A stretch of DNA of 64,000 bases from Nitrospira sp. GTDB lineage: Bacteria > Nitrospirota > Nitrospiria > Nitrospirales > Nitrospiraceae. Under the pieces are notes generated by a model. The model was not told where the DNA came from. It saw nothing but the letters and a program-made list of their open reading frames with translations, and did no database searches. This document shows, piece by piece, positions 43,299 through 53,023 of this stretch. How positions within the stretch are numbered: the stretch's first letter is position 1; each line of letters starts with the position of its first letter. The DNA lies in assembly GCA_018242665.1 (NCBI GenBank), contig JAFEBL010000011.1, positions 1 to 64,000 of the forward strand, written 5' to 3'. The position numbers and the translations under genes were made by a program.

Positions 43299-44300
43299 AT
43301 GAATCGTGCGCTTGTAGTAATGGGCTTGCTCTTGGGTCTGACCGGTCCAGCATACGCCGATGGTGGGCACGCGCATCACGTTATCCCGACCATGCCGAGC
43401 CTGGGTCAAACCACACTGGCGATTGACGACCACACGGTCACCTTGACCTTCGGCCCCGTCGATCTCCCGACCGGCCATGATGGTGACTTGGCCTCCAGCA
43501 TGCCGAAAAAAGTGTTTCAGCTGCCTGAAGACACCTACATGATCGGATACAAGTCCGAAGTCTTCACAAAAGACGGCACACCGCTCCCCAAGAACTATCT
43601 GCATCACATCCTCATGTTGAACAATGACAAACCCAGCGTCTCGTGCGACGGCGAACCGCTTTTTTTCGCTGGAGCTGGCTTGGAAATGACTGAAGCGCGA
43701 TTCCCTGAGGGCTACGCCGTCAAGCTCGGGAAAGGGCAAAACCTCATGTCAGTCGTGGCCTTTTATCACAAGGCGCCTCCCACGAAAGACGTGATGGCTC
43801 GGTTCACGATCTTCGTGGCCCCGAAAGGCGCGAAGGTGCAGGAAATGGACGTCTACCAGGTGGGCGTCAACATCGTGTGTTACAGCAAATTCGCTCAACG
43901 GGGCCCAGAGCAGACGGACGAAGGCATCGAAATCAATCCTGGCGTATCGGTTCTCTCAGCGCCCCTGAAATTCAACATGGATGGCTGCGTGAAGTTTGCG
44001 TATCCCCATGGCCACGACGAACTCCTCATGGTCGCGCTTGAAAACAAAACCTCGCAACAGACACTGCTCCGCACCGTTCCCGAGGTCGATGCAGACGGCA
44101 CCTTCCGTGACTTCCTGCCTCATCAAGTCTATCGGAACGGAACAGGATTCACCGTTACCAAGCAGGATGACTATGAAATGGTGATGGTGCACCACCACCC
44201 CCTGCACAATCACAACATTCAGCATGGGATGGGAAATTATCTGCTGTACATGACGCCAGGCGCCTGCCCTCAAGGGGCAAATACCGCCTCAGCACGCTAA
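43299..44300 (+). CDS. Secreted copper type II monooxygenase-like (PHM/SURNod19-like) protein
   Basis: The protein has 333 residues, with GAGGAG upstream of the ATG. The signal peptide (about 1-20) ends PAYADGG. The ligand set of peptidylglycine hydroxylating monooxygenase is matched: H102-H103 in YLHHILML and H157 in FYHKAP (first copper), H237-x-H239 in YPHGHDEL with a later Met (second copper). Three Cys (C116, C194, C230) may form a disulfide. A C-terminal His-rich stretch (H298-300, H303, H305, H309) may bind more metal. It would be a periplasmic oxygenase or copper-binding protein. Assignment is by fold pattern and the SURNod19/DBM family similarity from memory. Confidence 0.72.
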   Translation: MNRALVVMGLLLGLTGPAYADGGHAHHVIPTMPSLGQTTLAIDDHTVTLTFGPVDLPTGHDGDLASSMPKKVFQLPEDTYMIGYKSEVFTKDGTPLPKNYLHHILMLNNDKPSVSCDGEPLFFAGAGLEMTEARFPEGYAVKLGKGQNLMSVVAFYHKAPPTKDVMARFTIFVAPKGAKVQEMDVYQVGVNIVCYSKFAQRGPEQTDEGIEINPGVSVLSAPLKFNMDGCVKFAYPHGHDELLMVALENKTSQQTLLRTVPEVDADGTFRDFLPHQVYRNGTGFTVTKQDDYEMVMVHHHPLHNHNIQHGMGNYLLYMTPGACPQGANTASAR

Positions 44301-44579: not shown

Positions 44580-47500
44580 ATGTTCAGTATTGTACGACGG
44601 TGCAGGGTCCACCCCATGCCCAGCAACGGCCGGGCTGTTCATTTGCATCCCCGCTTGACGAGCATGAGATCTTCCATGTCCCTGCCGGACGCTTCCCTCA
44701 ACATCCTTCTCATCAACGAACATCCCGAAGAAATCAAACTGGTGACCACCAGCCTGCGCAATTTTTTCTCAGGATGCCGCATCGAAGCCGGCTACACATC
44801 CGAGGACGCATTGGCCTTCAGCCAACAGGGTGACTGGCACATCATTCTCATCGACCAGGAGTTGGCTCCGGAACGCGGCATGGATGTGATCGCCCGCCTG
44901 CGCCGACATGCCCCCTATGCAGCCATCCTTCTCCAGACGAACGAGAATGATTCGCATGCTGCGATTCAAGCCCTGCAACACGGTGCGGACTTTCTCCTCT
45001 TCAAACAGTCGCCCGGATTCATCACCGAACTCCTGTTCTCTGTGCAGGAAGCGGTGGAAAAGCGGGAATTGCAAATGAAGTTGGATCATACCTTCCAACG
45101 CCATTTGCGTTTCATCGAGACACTCAGCGACTTGTCCTACGAGCTCGATGCGGAAGGTCGATTCGTATATGTCAGCCCCACCGTCACCTCCATGCTCGGG
45201 TACGGCCCGGAGGAACTTGCAGGGCGCCACTATTCGATCCTTCTCGCGCCGCATCAGGAGCAAAGCGGGCGGTTTCGATTAAACGAACGACGGGCGGGAA
45301 GCCGATCGACACGCAAATTTGAACTCACCCTCCACGGCAAGCCCCTTCCAGATACCCCGACCCTCCCCGTCACGGTCGAGGTCACGGCAAAGGGGCTGTT
45401 TGATTCCGCCAACCGCTATCTGGGCACCATCGGGTTGCTCCACGACCTCTCGCAGGAAAAGGCTCAACGGGATCGCCTGACAGAATTGGAATCGCGTCTT
45501 CAGGAAACCCATCGACAGCTGACACTCACTCGTGAAGCCGCTCGAGTCTCCCGCCAGTTGCAGCAGCCCCTCGCCACCCTACTGCAGGACTCTCAGCGAT
45601 TGCTGACGTCCATCCAGGACAGCAGGATAGAGCAGCATGCGGAAACCATGGTCGCCAAAGCCTCCCACGCAAACCGATTGAGCCATCAGCTCACGCAAGT
45701 CGTGTATGACCAGCCTGCCGGATTTACCCCCCTCAACCTGAACGACGTTCTCCAGACCGTCGCGCAGGCAGTCCAGCCGCGCGCGGACGAGGCAGGGATT
45801 CAGATGGCGATCCGATTGGGGGATCATGTTCCGACGATTGTCGGTTCGCGCATGGACCTCGACCACTTAGCACACATCCTCCTTGAGTATGCGCAACACT
45901 GTCTCGCGAACGCCTCCGCCCCGGTCCGCCTCATCCTGGAATCAGGAACCATAGATCTGGCAAGCCGATCGATTGCCCAGGATGGCGTCACAGACCCGGC
46001 TGATCCCGCGCGCACCTTCGCCAGCTTTACCATCCGTGCCACAGTCGCTGCCGTGGGCCGGCCGTGGAACAAGGAGTCACCTAACACCGTGCCGGAAGAG
46101 CAGCTGCTCCTGGCCCATCGAATCGTTCAAGTGCATAACGGCGGGATTGAGATCGAACATACTGGCGATCAGGGCGTCACTATTTCGGTACGTCTTCCTG
46201 CAATAGCGGACAACTCCCAGACGGTTTCCACATTCGAACATCAACCTACGTCATCAAACGTTCCCTCCCGCGGTGACAGGAGAATGTGGCAACGCGCGAC
46301 ACAGGCGGCCCGCATGCAGCCTGATCGACGACGGTCCGAGCGTAAGTCCTTTTCCCTTCCTGTTCAATTGTCGATCGGCGGGACCACACTTCGTGGCGTC
46401 TTGCGCAACATGAGCACCGGAGGAGCACTCTTCACGATAGGCGATATCTCAGCCTCCATTCATCGCCAACCAGCCTATCTCGTGATCAAGACACCAGTAA
46501 GTTTTCTTGAGGTGCACGGCGTTGTTCACGAACGCGCCTCGGAAGCAGATGATGTTCCGTTTCATGGGATGCGTGAATTCGCCATTTCCTTTGCACCCAC
46601 CGTCGAACGGGACCGCAATGTGCTTCGCTCCCTGCTCGATGGCCTGCACGATGGCTCCACCACTGTCACGTTCGAAGGCTTGATCCTTCCAAACGACACG
46701 ACCGATGGAGCTAGCCGCGAATTGCATGCGGCCTCCGCGGAACCGGCAATGGAGCGCCGCGAGACCACCCGTTTGCCGCTCCGCCAGCCTGTTCGAATTG
46801 CCGAACCAGACAACCTTGCGAACCAACTGCTCGGCCACATCGTCAATCTCAGCCTGGATGGTGCGTGCCTTGAGCTGCCCTCTGGCCTCGAGCCCTTGGC
46901 AATTCAATCACAGCTGTATGTGCGACCTCTCGAAGCACGCGAGGCGGCCAACCCTGACTCGAACGCGGCGGAGGAACCTTGGTCGATGCGTCTCGCCTGG
47001 AATAGTTCTCGAGAAAGAGTCTCACGCGTTCAGGCAGGTGACAGGATAAGCAAGCTGGTCCATGTGGGGGTGCGCTTTGACCATCTCTCCCCTGCACAGG
47101 AGCATGGACTCCGACGCCTCATCGCCGACCGCACCAGCCTCTTTGAGGATCGGTTCGCACCCATGCTGGACGCCGCCATCGTCACGGATTCAACGACGAT
47201 TCACAATCATGACGGACAGCGGCTGTTGTTGTCCCATGACTATCCCAGGCAGCCCGTGACAAGACAGGCCCCCTTGGTTCTGCTCTGTCCCGGATACGGA
47301 ACGACCCAGCAGCACTACGTAGCAATTGCCTATGCCTTGGCGGGGGCCGGCCTTCACGTGGTGCGATATGATCACAGTCGGCACATCGGTGGAAGCGCCG
47401 GAGATCCTTCCCACACGACCTTCACATCACTGGAAGACGATCTCGACACGATCCTTACCTATGCTCACAGGGAATGGCCGGAGGCGCCACTCACGCTCCT

Positions 47501-48878
47501 GGCGCCAGACCTGATCGGACGGATTGCCCTGCGGCGACACGATTGGCAGAGGCAGCTCCATCGACTGATCCTGTTCAACCCAACCCTCGACCTGCAGACC
47601 TGTCTGTTGACCCTCCATCAAAGAGATCTGGTCCAGGAGCATATGGAAGGGAGCAGGCTGGGATTGGGCAACCTCCTCGGACTTCCCCTCGACATCGACC
47701 ACTTCCTGGCCGATGCGATCTCCGCGCAATATACCAACATTGCGGTACTCCACGAGGAGCTTACCCATTGCGCCACAGATGTGGTGATCCTCACGACAGA
47801 AGACGCCACGTTGGATGGTGCTCTTCCAGCCCCAACACCTTCCGCATTGAACGCGACGATGGATCGATTGGGATCAAGGGCTAGGAAGGTATGTCTCGCT
47901 CCTCCGATCACACCGACCAATGGATTGACACCGTCGCTGCTCGCCGCCTGTGCGCAACAACTTCTGCAACTTTGCCAACCGGGCCTGCCTTCGCAAGAGG
48001 CTGCCACTGTTCCCTCTTCCCTGCTCTCGCACCTCACCTCCACTCGAACCCGCCTGGAATCGGATCGAATGCGCGTCACCTACGCCCTTGGTACCGCGGG
48101 ACGCGAACGCCTCTGGACCACCTACTCCGATCTGACCCGTATCTTCGATGAACTTCCTGCGCACTGGCATGCTATTGATCAAATGTACCAACTACTCCAA
48201 CCGCTCGACGGGAGTGTGAGGCTCCTCGATGTGGGGTGTGGCCAGCATTCGTTCGCCCGATTGCTGTTGTTGAATCTCTCTTACCGGCTTCGCGCCCAAA
48301 GCTGGAAGCCCGCAGCGCGGCTGCACTATGTCGGGGTGGACTTCACGCCCTCGGCGCTGCACCAGGCACGAGAGGCGACCGGAATCGCGCTGCAACATGT
48401 CGATCAATTGTTCTCCGGCCGCCTGCCCGACGCAACGCCCCTCACTCGCCAGTGGGTGTTGAGTCGCTCCGCAGAGGTACTGCCTTTTGCCGACCATTCA
48501 TTCGACCGTATTGCGGCCACTCTCTCGCTCAGCTTCGCACATTCCCCGCTCCACACGTTGCGTGAACTATTCCGTGTACTCAAGCCCGGAGGAAGACTCG
48601 TCATCAGTGCGTTCACGCCGGCGGCGGACATGTCGCGCCTCTATCGGCCGGCTGTGGCGGAACTCAGATTGAATGCCTTCGCGGGAGAGGCTCGGATGAG
48701 CTTGAATCGAATGGCCCAATGTTGCATGGGGCTCCGCATCGGCCAAGTACACAGCTTCGAAGAAAGCACCCTGAACCACTACCTCGCACAAGTCACTCCT
48801 CTTCCACCAAGGCTTCTCCGTGCGCTTTCCGGTCAGCTGCTTCTCGCCGCCGCTGAAAAACCTGATTCCGCTGGCTGA
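44580..48878 (+). CDS. Multidomain signalling protein: REC, PAS, degenerate kinase core, 2 x PilZ, LuxD-like hydrolase, SAM methyltransferase
   Basis: The protein has 1432 residues from ATG at 44580 (GGAG upstream); ATGs at 44664 and 44676 would cut 28 or 32 residues. In order: receiver (about 40-155, Asp92, Lys142); PAS (175-300); coiled coil and a kinase-like core (315-545) lacking the phospho-His (VSRQLQQPLATLL) and ATP-lid Gly boxes. Two PilZ domains follow, each with its c-di-GMP motifs: RRSER and NMSTGG (584-615), then RETTR and NLSLDG (727-761). Next is a LuxD-type alpha/beta-hydrolase (895-1150) with YDHSRHIGGSAG, Asp977 where LuxD has Ser, and no visible His. Last is a class I methyltransferase (1200-1432) with RLLDVGCG, SAEVLPFADHSFD and VLKPGGRLVIS. 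It probably converts c-di-GMP and phosphorylation inputs into methyltransferase output. It heads a signalling cluster. Confidence 0.85.
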   Translation: MFSIVRRCRVHPMPSNGRAVHLHPRLTSMRSSMSLPDASLNILLINEHPEEIKLVTTSLRNFFSGCRIEAGYTSEDALAFSQQGDWHIILIDQELAPERGMDVIARLRRHAPYAAILLQTNENDSHAAIQALQHGADFLLFKQSPGFITELLFSVQEAVEKRELQMKLDHTFQRHLRFIETLSDLSYELDAEGRFVYVSPTVTSMLGYGPEELAGRHYSILLAPHQEQSGRFRLNERRAGSRSTRKFELTLHGKPLPDTPTLPVTVEVTAKGLFDSANRYLGTIGLLHDLSQEKAQRDRLTELESRLQETHRQLTLTREAARVSRQLQQPLATLLQDSQRLLTSIQDSRIEQHAETMVAKASHANRLSHQLTQVVYDQPAGFTPLNLNDVLQTVAQAVQPRADEAGIQMAIRLGDHVPTIVGSRMDLDHLAHILLEYAQHCLANASAPVRLILESGTIDLASRSIAQDGVTDPADPARTFASFTIRATVAAVGRPWNKESPNTVPEEQLLLAHRIVQVHNGGIEIEHTGDQGVTISVRLPAIADNSQTVSTFEHQPTSSNVPSRGDRRMWQRATQAARMQPDRRRSERKSFSLPVQLSIGGTTLRGVLRNMSTGGALFTIGDISASIHRQPAYLVIKTPVSFLEVHGVVHERASEADDVPFHGMREFAISFAPTVERDRNVLRSLLDGLHDGSTTVTFEGLILPNDTTDGASRELHAASAEPAMERRETTRLPLRQPVRIAEPDNLANQLLGHIVNLSLDGACLELPSGLEPLAIQSQLYVRPLEAREAANPDSNAAEEPWSMRLAWNSSRERVSRVQAGDRISKLVHVGVRFDHLSPAQEHGLRRLIADRTSLFEDRFAPMLDAAIVTDSTTIHNHDGQRLLLSHDYPRQPVTRQAPLVLLCPGYGTTQQHYVAIAYALAGAGLHVVRYDHSRHIGGSAGDPSHTTFTSLEDDLDTILTYAHREWPEAPLTLLAPDLIGRIALRRHDWQRQLHRLILFNPTLDLQTCLLTLHQRDLVQEHMEGSRLGLGNLLGLPLDIDHFLADAISAQYTNIAVLHEELTHCATDVVILTTEDATLDGALPAPTPSALNATMDRLGSRARKVCLAPPITPTNGLTPSLLAACAQQLLQLCQPGLPSQEAATVPSSLLSHLTSTRTRLESDRMRVTYALGTAGRERLWTTYSDLTRIFDELPAHWHAIDQMYQLLQPLDGSVRLLDVGCGQHSFARLLLLNLSYRLRAQSWKPAARLHYVGVDFTPSALHQAREATGIALQHVDQLFSGRLPDATPLTRQWVLSRSAEVLPFADHSFDRIAATLSLSFAHSPLHTLRELFRVLKPGGRLVISAFTPAADMSRLYRPAVAELRLNAFAGEARMSLNRMAQCCMGLRIGQVHSFEESTLNHYLAQVTPLPPRLLRALSGQLLLAAAEKPDSAG

Positions 48879-48985: not shown

Positions 48986-50278
48986 ATGACATTCCACCCG
49001 TCCAGCCGGCGGATCTCCACGCTGCAAAGCTCTGTGGAACTACTTAAAGTCATCAGTGAATTTTCCGAACGTCTCGGTGGCGCGCCCGATCTCGGGCAGC
49101 TCGGCGAGGCCATTGTGACGAACTTCTCTCGCCAGGCGCGCCTGCCGCAGGCGGCTCTGTGGGTATGCGAGGCCGAGGGTGATCACTACCGCTTGATTGC
49201 CTCGCACGGACAGGACAACCCGTCCACCATGCTGCCTCTTTTAACCGGGGATCACCCGCTCGTTCACAGCCTTGCAGGCAAGGGATCGGTGCTCCATCCA
49301 TTTCAATCCGCCGTAGCACTGGGTGGACAGACGTTGACCGCCACCCAGGCGGTGCTCTGCCTCGCATTCAGAAAGGGGACGACACTTCTTGGAGTGTGCA
49401 TCCTCGGGCCCATCGACCGAGGCTGTGAGAACAGTGAGATGGATGAAGACCAGAAAGCCCTGATCGAAACCATGGCGCGAATCGCGAGTGTGAACTTAGA
49501 CCACTCGCTATCTCAGGATCATCTCCGCCGATCCTCTACGTTAATGAGGCGAACTGATCGATTGCGTTCGTTGGAAATCATGGCCGGCGGCTTTGCCCAT
49601 GAAATCCGTAACCCCCTGACTTCGATCAAAACCTTTGTCCAGCTGGCCCCCCAACGTCAGCAGGATCCAGTGTTCATCAAGGAATTTAGCAAACTGGCGC
49701 TCGAAGACATTCACCGCATCGAACGGCTGCTCCACGAGATTCTCGATTACGCCAGCTACATGACGCCCAAGCCCGTGGAAGTGGACCTGAACGAAGTCGT
49801 GGCCTCCTGCATCGGCTTCGTGTCCGCCACCGCTGCACGGCGCAACATTGACCTACAGACCCTGCTGTCACCCCAGTTGCCCCTTCTCCTCCTCGACCGG
49901 CAACAGATCAAGCAGGTCCTGCTGAATCTCCTCTTGAATGCACTCGACGCCATGCCCACGGGCACCGGCACCATTCGTATTCATACACGCCTGTTGCCCC
50001 AGACCGGCCGCACCCCCTGGGTCCAACTCCAGGTCGCAGACGAAGGCTGCGGCATCACGCCCAACCACCTGGAACACATTTTCGACCCCTTCTTCACCAC
50101 CAAACATTCAAACAGTGCCGGGGATGGGGCGGGGCTTGGTCTCACCACCGCGCATCAGATCGTCCGCGAGCATGGTGGAACCTTGACTGTCGAAAGCCGG
50201 GTGGGAGCAGGCTCCACGTTTTCCGTTAATCTTCCGGTGCCGGATGGAGGCGCCACAGGTTCAGCAGTACGGGAGTAA
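48986..50278 (+). CDS. GAF-domain sensor histidine kinase (NtrB-like)
   Basis: The protein has 430 residues from ATG at 48986; a GTG at 48959 would add nine. The N-terminal half (about 20-180) is a GAF-type sensor domain. The kinase core has the phospho-His H205 in GGFAHEIRNPLTSIKTF. It also has the N box LLNLLLNALDAM, G1 VADEGCGI, F box DPFFTTKHS and G2 GAGLGLTTAHQIV. There is no membrane span, so it senses a cytoplasmic signal. It ends one base before the ATG of the NtrC-type regulator, which is its likely partner. Confidence 0.92.
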   Translation: MTFHPSSRRISTLQSSVELLKVISEFSERLGGAPDLGQLGEAIVTNFSRQARLPQAALWVCEAEGDHYRLIASHGQDNPSTMLPLLTGDHPLVHSLAGKGSVLHPFQSAVALGGQTLTATQAVLCLAFRKGTTLLGVCILGPIDRGCENSEMDEDQKALIETMARIASVNLDHSLSQDHLRRSSTLMRRTDRLRSLEIMAGGFAHEIRNPLTSIKTFVQLAPQRQQDPVFIKEFSKLALEDIHRIERLLHEILDYASYMTPKPVEVDLNEVVASCIGFVSATAARRNIDLQTLLSPQLPLLLLDRQQIKQVLLNLLLNALDAMPTGTGTIRIHTRLLPQTGRTPWVQLQVADEGCGITPNHLEHIFDPFFTTKHSNSAGDGAGLGLTTAHQIVREHGGTLTVESRVGAGSTFSVNLPVPDGGATGSAVRE

Positions 50279-50279
50279 C

Positions 50280-51692
50280 ATGAAGAAACGAGTCCTACTT
50301 GTCGATGATGAGCCGCGTGTACGCGCCTCGCTCAGAACGGTGCTGGAACCGACCTATGACATCCTGGAAGCGGTGGATGCCGCCGAGGGAATCCGCAGCT
50401 TCAAGCACGATGCCCCTGATCTCGTGCTGCTGGATGTGATTCTGCCTGGAGCCGACGGTCTGTCTGCATTGCAGACCATGAGAACAGACAATCATGCCGT
50501 CCCGGTCATCATGCTGACCGGGACAAAGGCGGTGAAAACGGCCGTGGACGCCATGAAGCTCGGAGCGGCTGACTACCTTTCCAAGCCGTTCGATGTGGAA
50601 GAACTGCAAATCGTGATCGAGCGGACCCTCGGCAAACAGCAATTGGAACAGGAAGTCCGCCAATTGCGCGCCCAGGTCGTGCAGCGCTACGCGTTCCACA
50701 ACCTGATCGGCAAAAGCTCGGCGATGCAGGAAATCTACGCGAAGATCGAACAAGTGGCCGACAGCCGCACCACGGTGCTGGTCACCGGCGAGAGCGGAAC
50801 CGGCAAAGAACTCGTAGCCAAAGCTATTCATTACAACAGCTCACGTCGCGAGCGTCCCTTCGTGGCGTTGAACTGCGCGGCCTTGCCAGAAACGCTCATC
50901 GAAAGTGAACTGTTTGGCCACGAAAAAGGGTCCTTCACCGATGCCACAGCCAGACGGGTGGGACAGTTTGAATTGGCCAATACCGGCACGCTGTTCCTTG
51001 ACGAAATCGGGGACCTGAGTCCGGCCACCCAAGCCAAGTTGCTCCGCGTCCTGCAGGAACGGGAATTCACGAGAGTGGGCGGGGTCCAATCTATCAAAGT
51101 CGATGTCCGCATCGTCGCCGCGACCAATAAACATCTCGATGAGATGGTGCGAAAAAACCAATTCCGGGAAGACCTGTACTATCGCATCAACGTCATCGCG
51201 CTCTACCTTCCTCCGCTGCGCGAACGCGGGGAAGACATCGCCCTGCTGGCGAAACATTTTCTCGCCAAACGCATCGAGGAAGAAAAACGGCCGCCACAGG
51301 AGTTCACGAAAGATGCGCTGGAGCTGGTTTCACACTATCCCTGGCCGGGCAACGTCCGCGAGATGGAAAACATCATCGAGCAGGCGTTCATCTGGTCGAA
51401 AGGATCGCCGGTCATCACGCCCGAGCATCTGCCGAACATCTTGCGCACCGATACCCGCTCAAGTTCTCTGCGGGACGATACCCTTGCCGGCCGCATGTCT
51501 CTGGAAAAGGCGGTGATGGAGTTCGAGCGCGAGATCATTCTGGACGCGTTGAAGCGAACCACCTATGTCCAAACGCATGCGGCGACGATGCTGGGCATCA
51601 GCCGCCGCATGTTGAAATATCGCATGGATACGTTGGGAATCAGCAGGCCTGACAACGGTGGGCACCACGAGCCCCCAACGCCTCAGGAGTGA
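50280..51692 (+). CDS. NtrC-family sigma54-dependent response regulator
   Basis: The protein has 470 residues from ATG at 50280 with GGGAG upstream. The receiver has Asp52 (LVLLDVILP). The AAA+ domain (about 140-375) has Walker A GESGTGKE (170-177) and Walker B LFLDEIGDLS. Its sigma54 loop reads GSFTDA (217-222) instead of GAFTGA. The C-terminal Fis-type helix-turn-helix (about 425-460) contains ALKRTTYVQTHAATMLGISRR. It should activate sigma54 promoters after phosphorylation by the adjacent kinase. The Asp in the loop is a known natural variant, so sigma54 contact may be retained. Confidence 0.94.
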   Translation: MKKRVLLVDDEPRVRASLRTVLEPTYDILEAVDAAEGIRSFKHDAPDLVLLDVILPGADGLSALQTMRTDNHAVPVIMLTGTKAVKTAVDAMKLGAADYLSKPFDVEELQIVIERTLGKQQLEQEVRQLRAQVVQRYAFHNLIGKSSAMQEIYAKIEQVADSRTTVLVTGESGTGKELVAKAIHYNSSRRERPFVALNCAALPETLIESELFGHEKGSFTDATARRVGQFELANTGTLFLDEIGDLSPATQAKLLRVLQEREFTRVGGVQSIKVDVRIVAATNKHLDEMVRKNQFREDLYYRINVIALYLPPLRERGEDIALLAKHFLAKRIEEEKRPPQEFTKDALELVSHYPWPGNVREMENIIEQAFIWSKGSPVITPEHLPNILRTDTRSSSLRDDTLAGRMSLEKAVMEFEREIILDALKRTTYVQTHAATMLGISRRMLKYRMDTLGISRPDNGGHHEPPTPQE

Positions 51693-51880: not shown

Positions 51881-53023
51881 ATGGGGACTCAGTCAACGAG
51901 CGAACGCGTAGCGGTGAAACCATCGGTTCTCGTGGTTGATGATGAGACCGGACCACGCGACGCGCTGAAAGTTATCCTTCGCCCCTTCTTCACGATCCAC
52001 TCCGCCGACAACGCCAAATCCGCTCTTCGGGTGCTCAAAGATCAGCATATCGACCTCATCACCCTCGACCAGAAGCTTCCCGATCGCCAGGGCATCGACC
52101 TGCTGCAGGATATCAAGCAGGATTATGCGGACATTGAAGTCATCATCATCACCGGCTATGGCAGTTTGAAATCGGCAATGGAAGGCATTCGGCACGGAGC
52201 GGCGGGATATCTGCTCAAGCCCTTCAACGTCACGGAATTGATCACCCTGATCAATCAAACGTTGGAGAAGAAGCAGCGCTTGGATTACCTTCGGTCGTTT
52301 TTGAAAACCTCGACGGCCTTGTGGGGAAGTGAACAGGACGCCGCGCAGGCCTGGAAGGATCTGCAAATCAACTATTTCGCCATCGGCAATGCGACGAACG
52401 AAGCAGTCGGCGGTGGGACGGATGTCACGGCGTTGATCCCCTTGTTATCCGACCTGCTCGAAGCCAAAGACCGTCAATTGTTGAACCACTGCAGCCGGGT
52501 CAGCTTTTATGCCTCGCTTCTGGCCAATCAGTTGAACCTTCCCCTTCCAGACCAGAAAGCCTTGGCACTGGGGGCCTTCTTGCACGATATCGGCAAGATC
52601 AGCCTGCCACACTACAAGTATGCTGCCGATGACGACGATGGCCCAGGCGCCGGTGGACGGGGGAGAGATTACTCAGAAGCCGGGGCGCGCATGTTGTTGC
52701 CGCTGGGATTCCAAGCCGAGGTGGGACAAATCGTCTCCTACCACCATGAACGGTTCGACGGGCTCAACAATCCCCATGGACTGGAAAAAGAGGGCATTCC
52801 CCTTTTGGCTCGCATTGTCGCGATCGCCCAGGCGTTCGACAACCTGACGGTCGACATGCCCGGACATCAACCGACATCCATCGAGGACGCAATCCGGCAA
52901 ATTCTGCTGGAGGCGGAGACACGGTTCGATCCGAAACTGACGGAGCTGTTTGCGCAAGTGGTGCGGGAGTGCAAGTCCTCACTGCCGGCGCTGGCCATCG
53001 CGAAAACCTCACCGGCAAACTGA
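51881..53023 (+). CDS. Receiver protein with a degenerate HD-GYP domain
   Basis: The protein has 380 residues, with GGGAG 13 bases upstream. The receiver (about 14-130) has Asp63 (ITLDQKLP) and Lys113. A linker leads to an HD domain at about 185-370 with H203 (NHCSRVSFYA), H235-D236 (FLHDIGKISLP), H288-H289 (YHHERFDG) and D321. HD-GYP phosphodiesterases have HHExxDGxGYP, but here it reads HHERFDGLNNPHG. A further metal His, normally in an H-x3-G pattern, is Ser265 (DYSEAG). So c-di-GMP hydrolysis is doubtful and c-di-GMP binding remains possible. The gene ends five bases before recN, on the opposite strand. Confidence 0.88.
   Translation: MGTQSTSERVAVKPSVLVVDDETGPRDALKVILRPFFTIHSADNAKSALRVLKDQHIDLITLDQKLPDRQGIDLLQDIKQDYADIEVIIITGYGSLKSAMEGIRHGAAGYLLKPFNVTELITLINQTLEKKQRLDYLRSFLKTSTALWGSEQDAAQAWKDLQINYFAIGNATNEAVGGGTDVTALIPLLSDLLEAKDRQLLNHCSRVSFYASLLANQLNLPLPDQKALALGAFLHDIGKISLPHYKYAADDDDGPGAGGRGRDYSEAGARMLLPLGFQAEVGQIVSYHHERFDGLNNPHGLEKEGIPLLARIVAIAQAFDNLTVDMPGHQPTSIEDAIRQILLEAETRFDPKLTELFAQVVRECKSSLPALAIAKTSPAN

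Follow-up and report, generated by a model that had tools for sequence, protein, structure and literature searches.

The DNA considered here is a window of 64,000 nucleotides from contig JAFEBL010000011.1 of a Nitrospira sp. assembly (GCA_018242665.1; 4.06 Mb, 57 contigs), and the element in question is the gene of a giant protein that carries a receiver (REC), a PAS domain, two PilZ domains, a LuxD-like alpha/beta-hydrolase and a class I S-adenosylmethionine (SAM) methyltransferase, and lies next to the genes of a two-component pair (Table 1). Nitrospira are major nitrite oxidisers, some of them complete ammonia oxidisers, and to our knowledge few signalling systems of the Nitrospirota have been characterised. 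As a first-pass annotation of the window had stated, the protein is encoded by a single frame without internal stops; its likely start is at codon 29-33 (ATG 44664 or 44676), because orthologues have stops within the first ~20-30 codons. All of the domains named by that annotation score above curated Pfam cut-offs and stand in the order it gave, but it overlooked the remains of a histidine kinase that lie after PAS and before the first PilZ domain. No account of this order was found in the literature searched, and searches that paired PilZ with a methyltransferase in Nitrospira, or with methyl-ester signalling, likewise gave nothing.

Table 1. Features of the giant gene and its neighbours in the window
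Feature	Position	Strand	Basis or remark
Giant protein, REC-PAS-pseudoHK-PilZ-PilZ-pseudoLuxD-methyltransferase (pseudo, predicted inactive; HK, histidine kinase)	44580..48878	+	1432 aa as listed
Receiver domain (aa 42-143)	44703..45008	+	Pfam above curated cut-off
PAS domain (aa 177-289)	45108..45446	+	Pfam above curated cut-off
Degenerate histidine-kinase module (aa ~296-545)	45465..46214	+	NCBIfam and PDB profile search
PilZ domain 1 (RxxxR, NxSxxG)	46311..46679	+	Pfam, motifs
PilZ domain 2 (aa 725-849; RxxxR, NxSxxG; fast evolving, dN/dS 0.50)	46752..47126	+	Pfam, motifs
LuxD-like alpha/beta-hydrolase, predicted pseudoenzyme (aa ~868-1160)	47181..48059	+	Pfam, 1THT profile
Class I SAM methyltransferase domain (aa ~1161-1425)	48060..48854	+	Pfam, motifs
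Upstream neighbour, family unknown; marks the syntenic slot, conserved	43299..44300	+	
Soluble GAF-type HisKA-HATPase histidine kinase, 439 aa	48959..50278	+	H, N and G boxes intact
NtrC/AtoC-type response regulator with sigma-54 AAA+ domain, L1 loop GSFTDA	50244..51692	+	
RpfG-like REC-HD response regulator, conserved neighbour, GYP motif degenerate	51881..53023	+	

The giant gene is present in all 28 of the other genomes sampled from the genus, with orthologues of 1403-1453 aa at 46-70% identity; full-length matches on Nitrospira-named contigs lie at 59-70%. Sampling is mostly within the Nitrospirota and was extended by plasmid searches, in which the LuxD-methyltransferase fusion gave no full-length match, and by one scan of named genomes with the window protein, which returned Nitrospira alone. 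A sequencing frameshift or misjoined frames, for which no supporting evidence was found, can practically be dismissed as the origin of the architecture, since the same length and domain order recur in independent orthologues of 26 of these 28 congeners and in the other two the gene is divided between contigs.

In the receiver, all 24 congeners examined have the phospho-acceptor D92 as well as T120 and K142; the acidic pair reads N46-E47. The stretch that follows PAS is not a linker but a degenerate HisKA/HATPase module, which matches PDB profiles of ZraS (9jfj, E 2.7e-14), RetS (1e-6) and FixL. In all 24 congeners its phospho-acceptor His, still visible in a few other genera, has become Arg (aa 325). 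No N or G1 box can be recognised, and a C-terminal HATPase strand motif is kept; lacking the H, N and G boxes that define a histidine kinase, the module is, as far as its residues tell, catalytically dead. The two PilZ domains each carry the complete set of c-di-GMP (cyclic di-GMP) receptor motifs, RxxxR and (D/N)xSxxG, as first annotated, and both are predicted to bind the nucleotide. These motifs are near-invariant, with R, R, N and G found in every one of the 24 congeners and the second Ser in 20. The genome as a whole (G000) has 31 PilZ matches, including runs of at least three adjoining PilZ genes at C11:113642-115964 and C7:209287-210521.

The LuxD-like region is covered by Hydrolase_4 (aa 899-1007) and Acyl_transf_2/LuxD (PF02273, aa 874-984; 27.8 bits vs a cut-off of 20.3), which places it in the LuxD profile family, and scores 29.8 bits against the 420 required by the LuxD equivalog NF052253. 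The nucleophile position is occupied by Asp977 (nt 47508-47510) and the acid and His of the triad are gone as well, so that neither the window protein nor its orthologues have a Ser-Asp-His triad, which is present in the paralogue L033 and others. The register is supported by comparison with Vibrio LuxD (1THT): an intact relative (L045) aligns to it over 250 aa (E 3e-22) and has all three triad residues in register, whereas the profile of window-type proteins (E 8e-18) puts an Asp opposite the LuxD Ser. Asp is found at the nucleophile site in 24/24 congeners and 21/21 proteins of alignment A4. In an alignment of 102 core sequences it is shared by all window-type proteins but two, which have Gly (L059, L112), and no window-type protein retains the acid and His in register; the substrate-side motif YDHSxHxGxSDG survives in the dead fold. 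The hydrolase is thus very probably inactive, and the invariance of the Asp suggests that it has been selected for a new role rather than left to drift. The region shares both sequence and fold family with the LuxD acyl transferase/myristoyl-ACP (acyl carrier protein) thioesterase, but differs from it in the Asp at the nucleophile position, in the missing acid and His, in its fusion to PilZ and methyltransferase and in the absence of luxC and luxE neighbours from the locus. An AlphaFold2 model of the C-terminal core (five input sequences) reached a predicted local distance difference test score (pLDDT) of 36 and was discarded; it supports no structural claim. Fusion to REC-PAS was considered as the cause of the catalytic loss and ruled out, as L103-L105 and L109-L110 combine REC-PAS with an intact triad.

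In the methyltransferase domain, Methyltransf_11 scores 47.6 bits at aa 1216-1342 against a cut-off of 21.2, and motif I (LDVGCGQH in the window, with the third Gly replaced by His) follows a pattern, LD(V/I)GCGxH, that is invariant within Nitrospira together with the motif-II Asp. The first-pass annotation had taken hydrolase and methyltransferase to be output enzymes, which is mostly wrong: the triad is lost, and the methyltransferase, which in Nitrospira still has the majority of its SAM motifs, has decayed in sister genera. The protein could still be an active enzyme, with c-di-GMP and phosphorylation as the switches for methyl transfer (and hydrolysis), in keeping with its intact PilZ motifs, the invariant residues of motifs I and II and the low dN/dS of the methyltransferase (0.18). 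This is unlikely considering that the triad is absent from all window-type proteins, that the loop after motif II is altered (SRSAE, an acidic residue having become Ser) and that sister genera which keep the whole giant protein have in many cases lost motif I and the acid of motif II (VDIDGSNTD, LIGLGR). Because the SAM motifs decay in these genera, methyl transfer would not be the conserved function of this type of protein.

Loss of residues has not been accompanied by loss of constraint. The ratio of nonsynonymous to synonymous substitution (dN/dS) is ~0.23 for the giant protein overall, and the regional values, pooled over close pairs, are 0.09 for REC, 0.12 for PAS, 0.11 for the coil and HisKA remnant, 0.32 for the HATPase remnant, 0.14 for PilZ1, 0.24 for the dead hydrolase and 0.18 for the methyltransferase, which together with the value for PilZ2 (Table 1) indicates that the entire protein is under purifying selection and PilZ2 the loosest part. 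A neutral remnant, decaying and without function, might be expected to look like a protein that has lost catalytic or motif residues in four domains and whose HATPase remnant and PilZ2 evolve fast. Such a remnant is very improbable here: it is contradicted by the purifying selection, by the full or near-full coverage in all sampled congeners, by the invariant change of Ser to Asp and by the strong conservation of REC, PAS and PilZ1. On this reading the window protein offers a clear example of an inactivated synthase that selection has retained in a regulatory role, and intact relatives from its own locus can be compared with it.

These relatives are found both within the genome and in other genera. 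A paralogue in the same genome (G000:C38:5000-7723) is a PilZ-PilZ-LuxD-methyltransferase protein with a full triad and is closely followed by a 1002-aa kinase consisting of two HisKA_7TM (seven-transmembrane, 7TM) regions, GAF, HisKA and HATPase. The slot of the giant gene itself is defined by SnoaL and the gene of unknown family upstream and by NtrC, RpfG and RecN downstream. In genera G324 and G329 it holds a REC-PAS-PilZ-PilZ-LuxD-methyltransferase protein whose LuxD domain is intact, followed by a kinase with two 7TM copies; in G032 REC-PAS has remained a gene of its own. An intact triad and a double 7TM kinase between these flanking genes are seen at loci L109, L110 and L037. The giant protein very probably derives from an intact ancestor of synthase type. 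The intact paralogue cassette (L033:9741-14791) lies near genes that by eye resemble a Pup-proteasome set, and a PilZ-UndA cassette (L130) adjoins the same neighbour, which gives the impression of one enzyme exchanged for another at a fixed site. At L060:6308-11305 a 1666-aa frame joins PilZ-LuxD-methyltransferase to a 7TM histidine kinase, and at L120:6719-11860 a 1714-aa frame fuses the giant protein straight to the NtrC-type regulator, the kinase gene being missing; some genomes are metagenome assemblies, and such lone odd fusions may be true or assembly effects.

The state of the triad goes hand in hand with the sensor of the adjacent kinase. The kinase in the window has a GAF-like N-terminus and zero transmembrane segments, and homologues of it encoded next to an intact synthase have one 7TM sensor or two. 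Among loci with an adjacent kinase in view, an intact triad is accompanied by a multi-transmembrane (7TM) kinase at 24 loci and by a soluble kinase at none, whereas 42 loci combine a dead triad with a soluble kinase. Two exceptions have a 7TM kinase without an active LuxD, namely L041 (Ser to Asn) and L058 (LuxD domain absent), and in both a PilZ-KASIII gene that keeps its Cys, His and Asn is inserted in between. At the level of genomes, strong N-terminal 7TM matches occur with an intact synthase or another enzyme partner and are absent from most genomes whose sole copy is dead; in G326, G328 and G279, which at first appeared to be exceptions, the receptor adjoins one of the swapped enzymes described below. 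The intact state is likely to be ancestral because outgroup genomes (L053-L056) are intact with 7TM. The replacements at the nucleophile (D, N, G or deletion) might have been read as multiple independent losses of the triad, which is not claimed as the tree does not require them.

The same receptor family is found directly downstream of other enzymes, most of them enzymes with acyl thioesters, fatty acids or isoprenoid precursors as substrates. The genes upstream of 7TM kinases encode PilZ-KASIII (L041, L058, L076, L077), PilZ-methyltransferase (L144), KAS II (L150), HMG-CoA reductase alone (L153), aldehyde dehydrogenase (L141), a carotenoid-desaturase-like protein (L147) and acyl-ACP reductase/PigE-type reductases, either with a PilZ-like domain (L132, L138-L140, L154, L155) or without one (L146); those with the PilZ-like domain match TIGR04058 at E 1e-21 to 1e-24 where scanned, and 6jzu at E 1e-19. 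Complete PilZ motifs occur in the KASIII, HMG-CoA reductase and methyltransferase forms and in several LuxD forms, and absent from the UndA and reductase forms. UndA, acyl-ACP reductase/PigE-N, FabH and HMG-CoA reductase are known enzymes, but many of the partners here have an N-terminal PilZ or PilZ-like domain and stand directly upstream of a kinase. At L131:8825-10657 a PilZ domain with complete motifs is fused to HMG-CoA reductase (PF00368, E 1e-110) upstream of a double 7TM kinase. A PilZ-like-UndA protein (L130:4995-6278; 4wwj, E 2.5e-28) and UndA-like relatives of fatty acid decarboxylases standing alone (L151:6611-7411, L152:4065-4949) are encoded directly upstream of 7TM histidine kinases. 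The HisKA_7TM domain (PF16927) is that of known N-terminal 7TM histidine kinases, which the kinases beside intact synthases resemble, except that here there are often two 7TM copies with a GAF domain and an enzyme gene as partner; the window kinase has lost the domain.

The pairing of synthase and 7TM receptor kinase looks like an undescribed lipid-signalling system, and the suggestion of an undescribed system is borne out, but in the intact relatives and their kinases rather than in the giant protein as an enzyme. Among the closest known arrangements is the Phc system of Ralstonia, in which the methyltransferase PhcB makes a hydroxy fatty acid methyl ester that is sensed by the adjacent kinase PhcS, with PhcR as regulator (PMC11960443, PMC6989110). 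The likeness is one of gene order and operon logic, not of sequence comparison with PhcB: in the intact relatives a methyltransferase synthase is followed by a sensor kinase and a regulator, and the methyltransferase gene directly precedes the kinase gene in the window as well. The cassettes of the Nitrospirota go beyond Phc in having a LuxD-like domain and PilZ, their kinase is of 7TM-GAF type and the regulator here is NtrC-type; in the window the kinase has no transmembrane segment and the hydrolase is inactive, whereas relatives with an intact triad have a membrane sensor. The methyltransferase at L144 is not claimed as a PhcB homologue, a plasmid search having given only generic methyltransferases.

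It is proposed that the ancestral cassette, still to be found elsewhere in the Nitrospirota and as the second copy in this genome, had a PilZ-LuxD-like acyl transferase/thioesterase-methyltransferase as synthase, next to it a 7TM-GAF histidine kinase and, at this locus, an NtrC-type regulator. Binding of c-di-GMP to PilZ would gate the enzyme, the LuxD-like Ser (or another acyl enzyme) would unload an acyl chain from acyl-ACP or acyl-coenzyme A (acyl-CoA), the methyltransferase would methylate the product, and the resulting small lipid would be sensed by the 7TM kinase, leading to phosphorylation of the regulator. We infer that the signal was a diffusible acyl compound, and that the ancestor made a lipid product which was sensed is probable. 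In the lineage of the window the triad was lost, REC-PAS and the dead kinase module were fused on and the partner kinase came to lack its membrane sensor. The giant protein would then combine inputs of three kinds, namely phosphorylation through REC, c-di-GMP through the two PilZ domains and whatever is sensed by PAS. Its dead LuxD fold, and perhaps its SAM domain, would bind ligands or serve as a scaffold, and its targets would be the soluble kinase and the NtrC regulator encoded alongside. On balance the favoured reading is that of a signal synthase which has been retired and now serves as a cytosolic regulator next to the soluble kinase; the chances that it regulates the adjacent two-component pair appear even. 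More tentatively, the Nitrospirota may possess modular lipid-signalling cassettes, in which swappable acyl or lipid enzymes, often PilZ-gated, are paired with a product-sensing 7TM-GAF kinase, with the window pair rebuilt as an internal integrator of c-di-GMP and phosphorylation.

Several of the partner enzymes are equally suited to a role in lipid homeostasis, in which intact LuxD-methyltransferases would modify a membrane or matrix lipid, the 7TM kinase would read the lipid state of the membrane instead of a released signal and the window protein would be the degenerate regulator of this loop. The KASIII, acyl-ACP reductase and HMG-CoA reductase partners fit this as well as they fit signalling, and NtrC regulators could control lipid genes; such unlike chemistries beside one receptor family fit different signals more easily, which is not decisive, and homeostasis is considered unlikely. 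Several points weigh against the retired-synthase and signalling-cassette proposal. A single branch of the core tree (Shimodaira-Hasegawa-like approximate likelihood-ratio test (SH-aLRT) 85) has all of the dead proteins on the same side, the soluble kinases require only one or two changes and long branches make the event count uncertain, so that very few events, down to a single co-loss, might account for the association. The list of partner enzymes covers 7TM kinases alone, the partners at L141 and L147 are not clearly acyl enzymes, five second 7TM kinases of one family (L133-L137) adjoin PAS-kinase-REC hybrids rather than enzymes, and two further 7TM kinases (L148, L149) stand without an enzyme partner. 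Two LuxD forms that belong to a second family (L044, L045) have incomplete PilZ motif sets, as does, on a strict count, the Nitrospira paralogue L033, which would imply that c-di-GMP gating is not universal among intact relatives, and the methyltransferase of Nitrospira may still be active. If the proposal is true, a c-di-GMP-gated synthase and a 7TM receptor kinase would couple biofilm state to cell-cell or membrane-lipid signalling, and the occurrence of one receptor family beside various enzymes would predict a set of separately testable lipid signals.

The remaining neighbours of the giant gene show peculiarities of their own. In the NtrC-type regulator the sigma-54 contact motif GAFTGA is replaced by GSFTDA, as in most of the orthologues checked, for which nothing was found in the literature searched. 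A missing rpoN as an explanation of GSFTDA is ruled out, the gene being present in 41/41 genomes. The L1 loop reads GAFTDA in L058 and L110 and GAFTGA in L041. The RpfG-like protein keeps its HD motif and has LNNPHG in place of the GYP motif, which makes its activity as a c-di-GMP phosphodiesterase doubtful.

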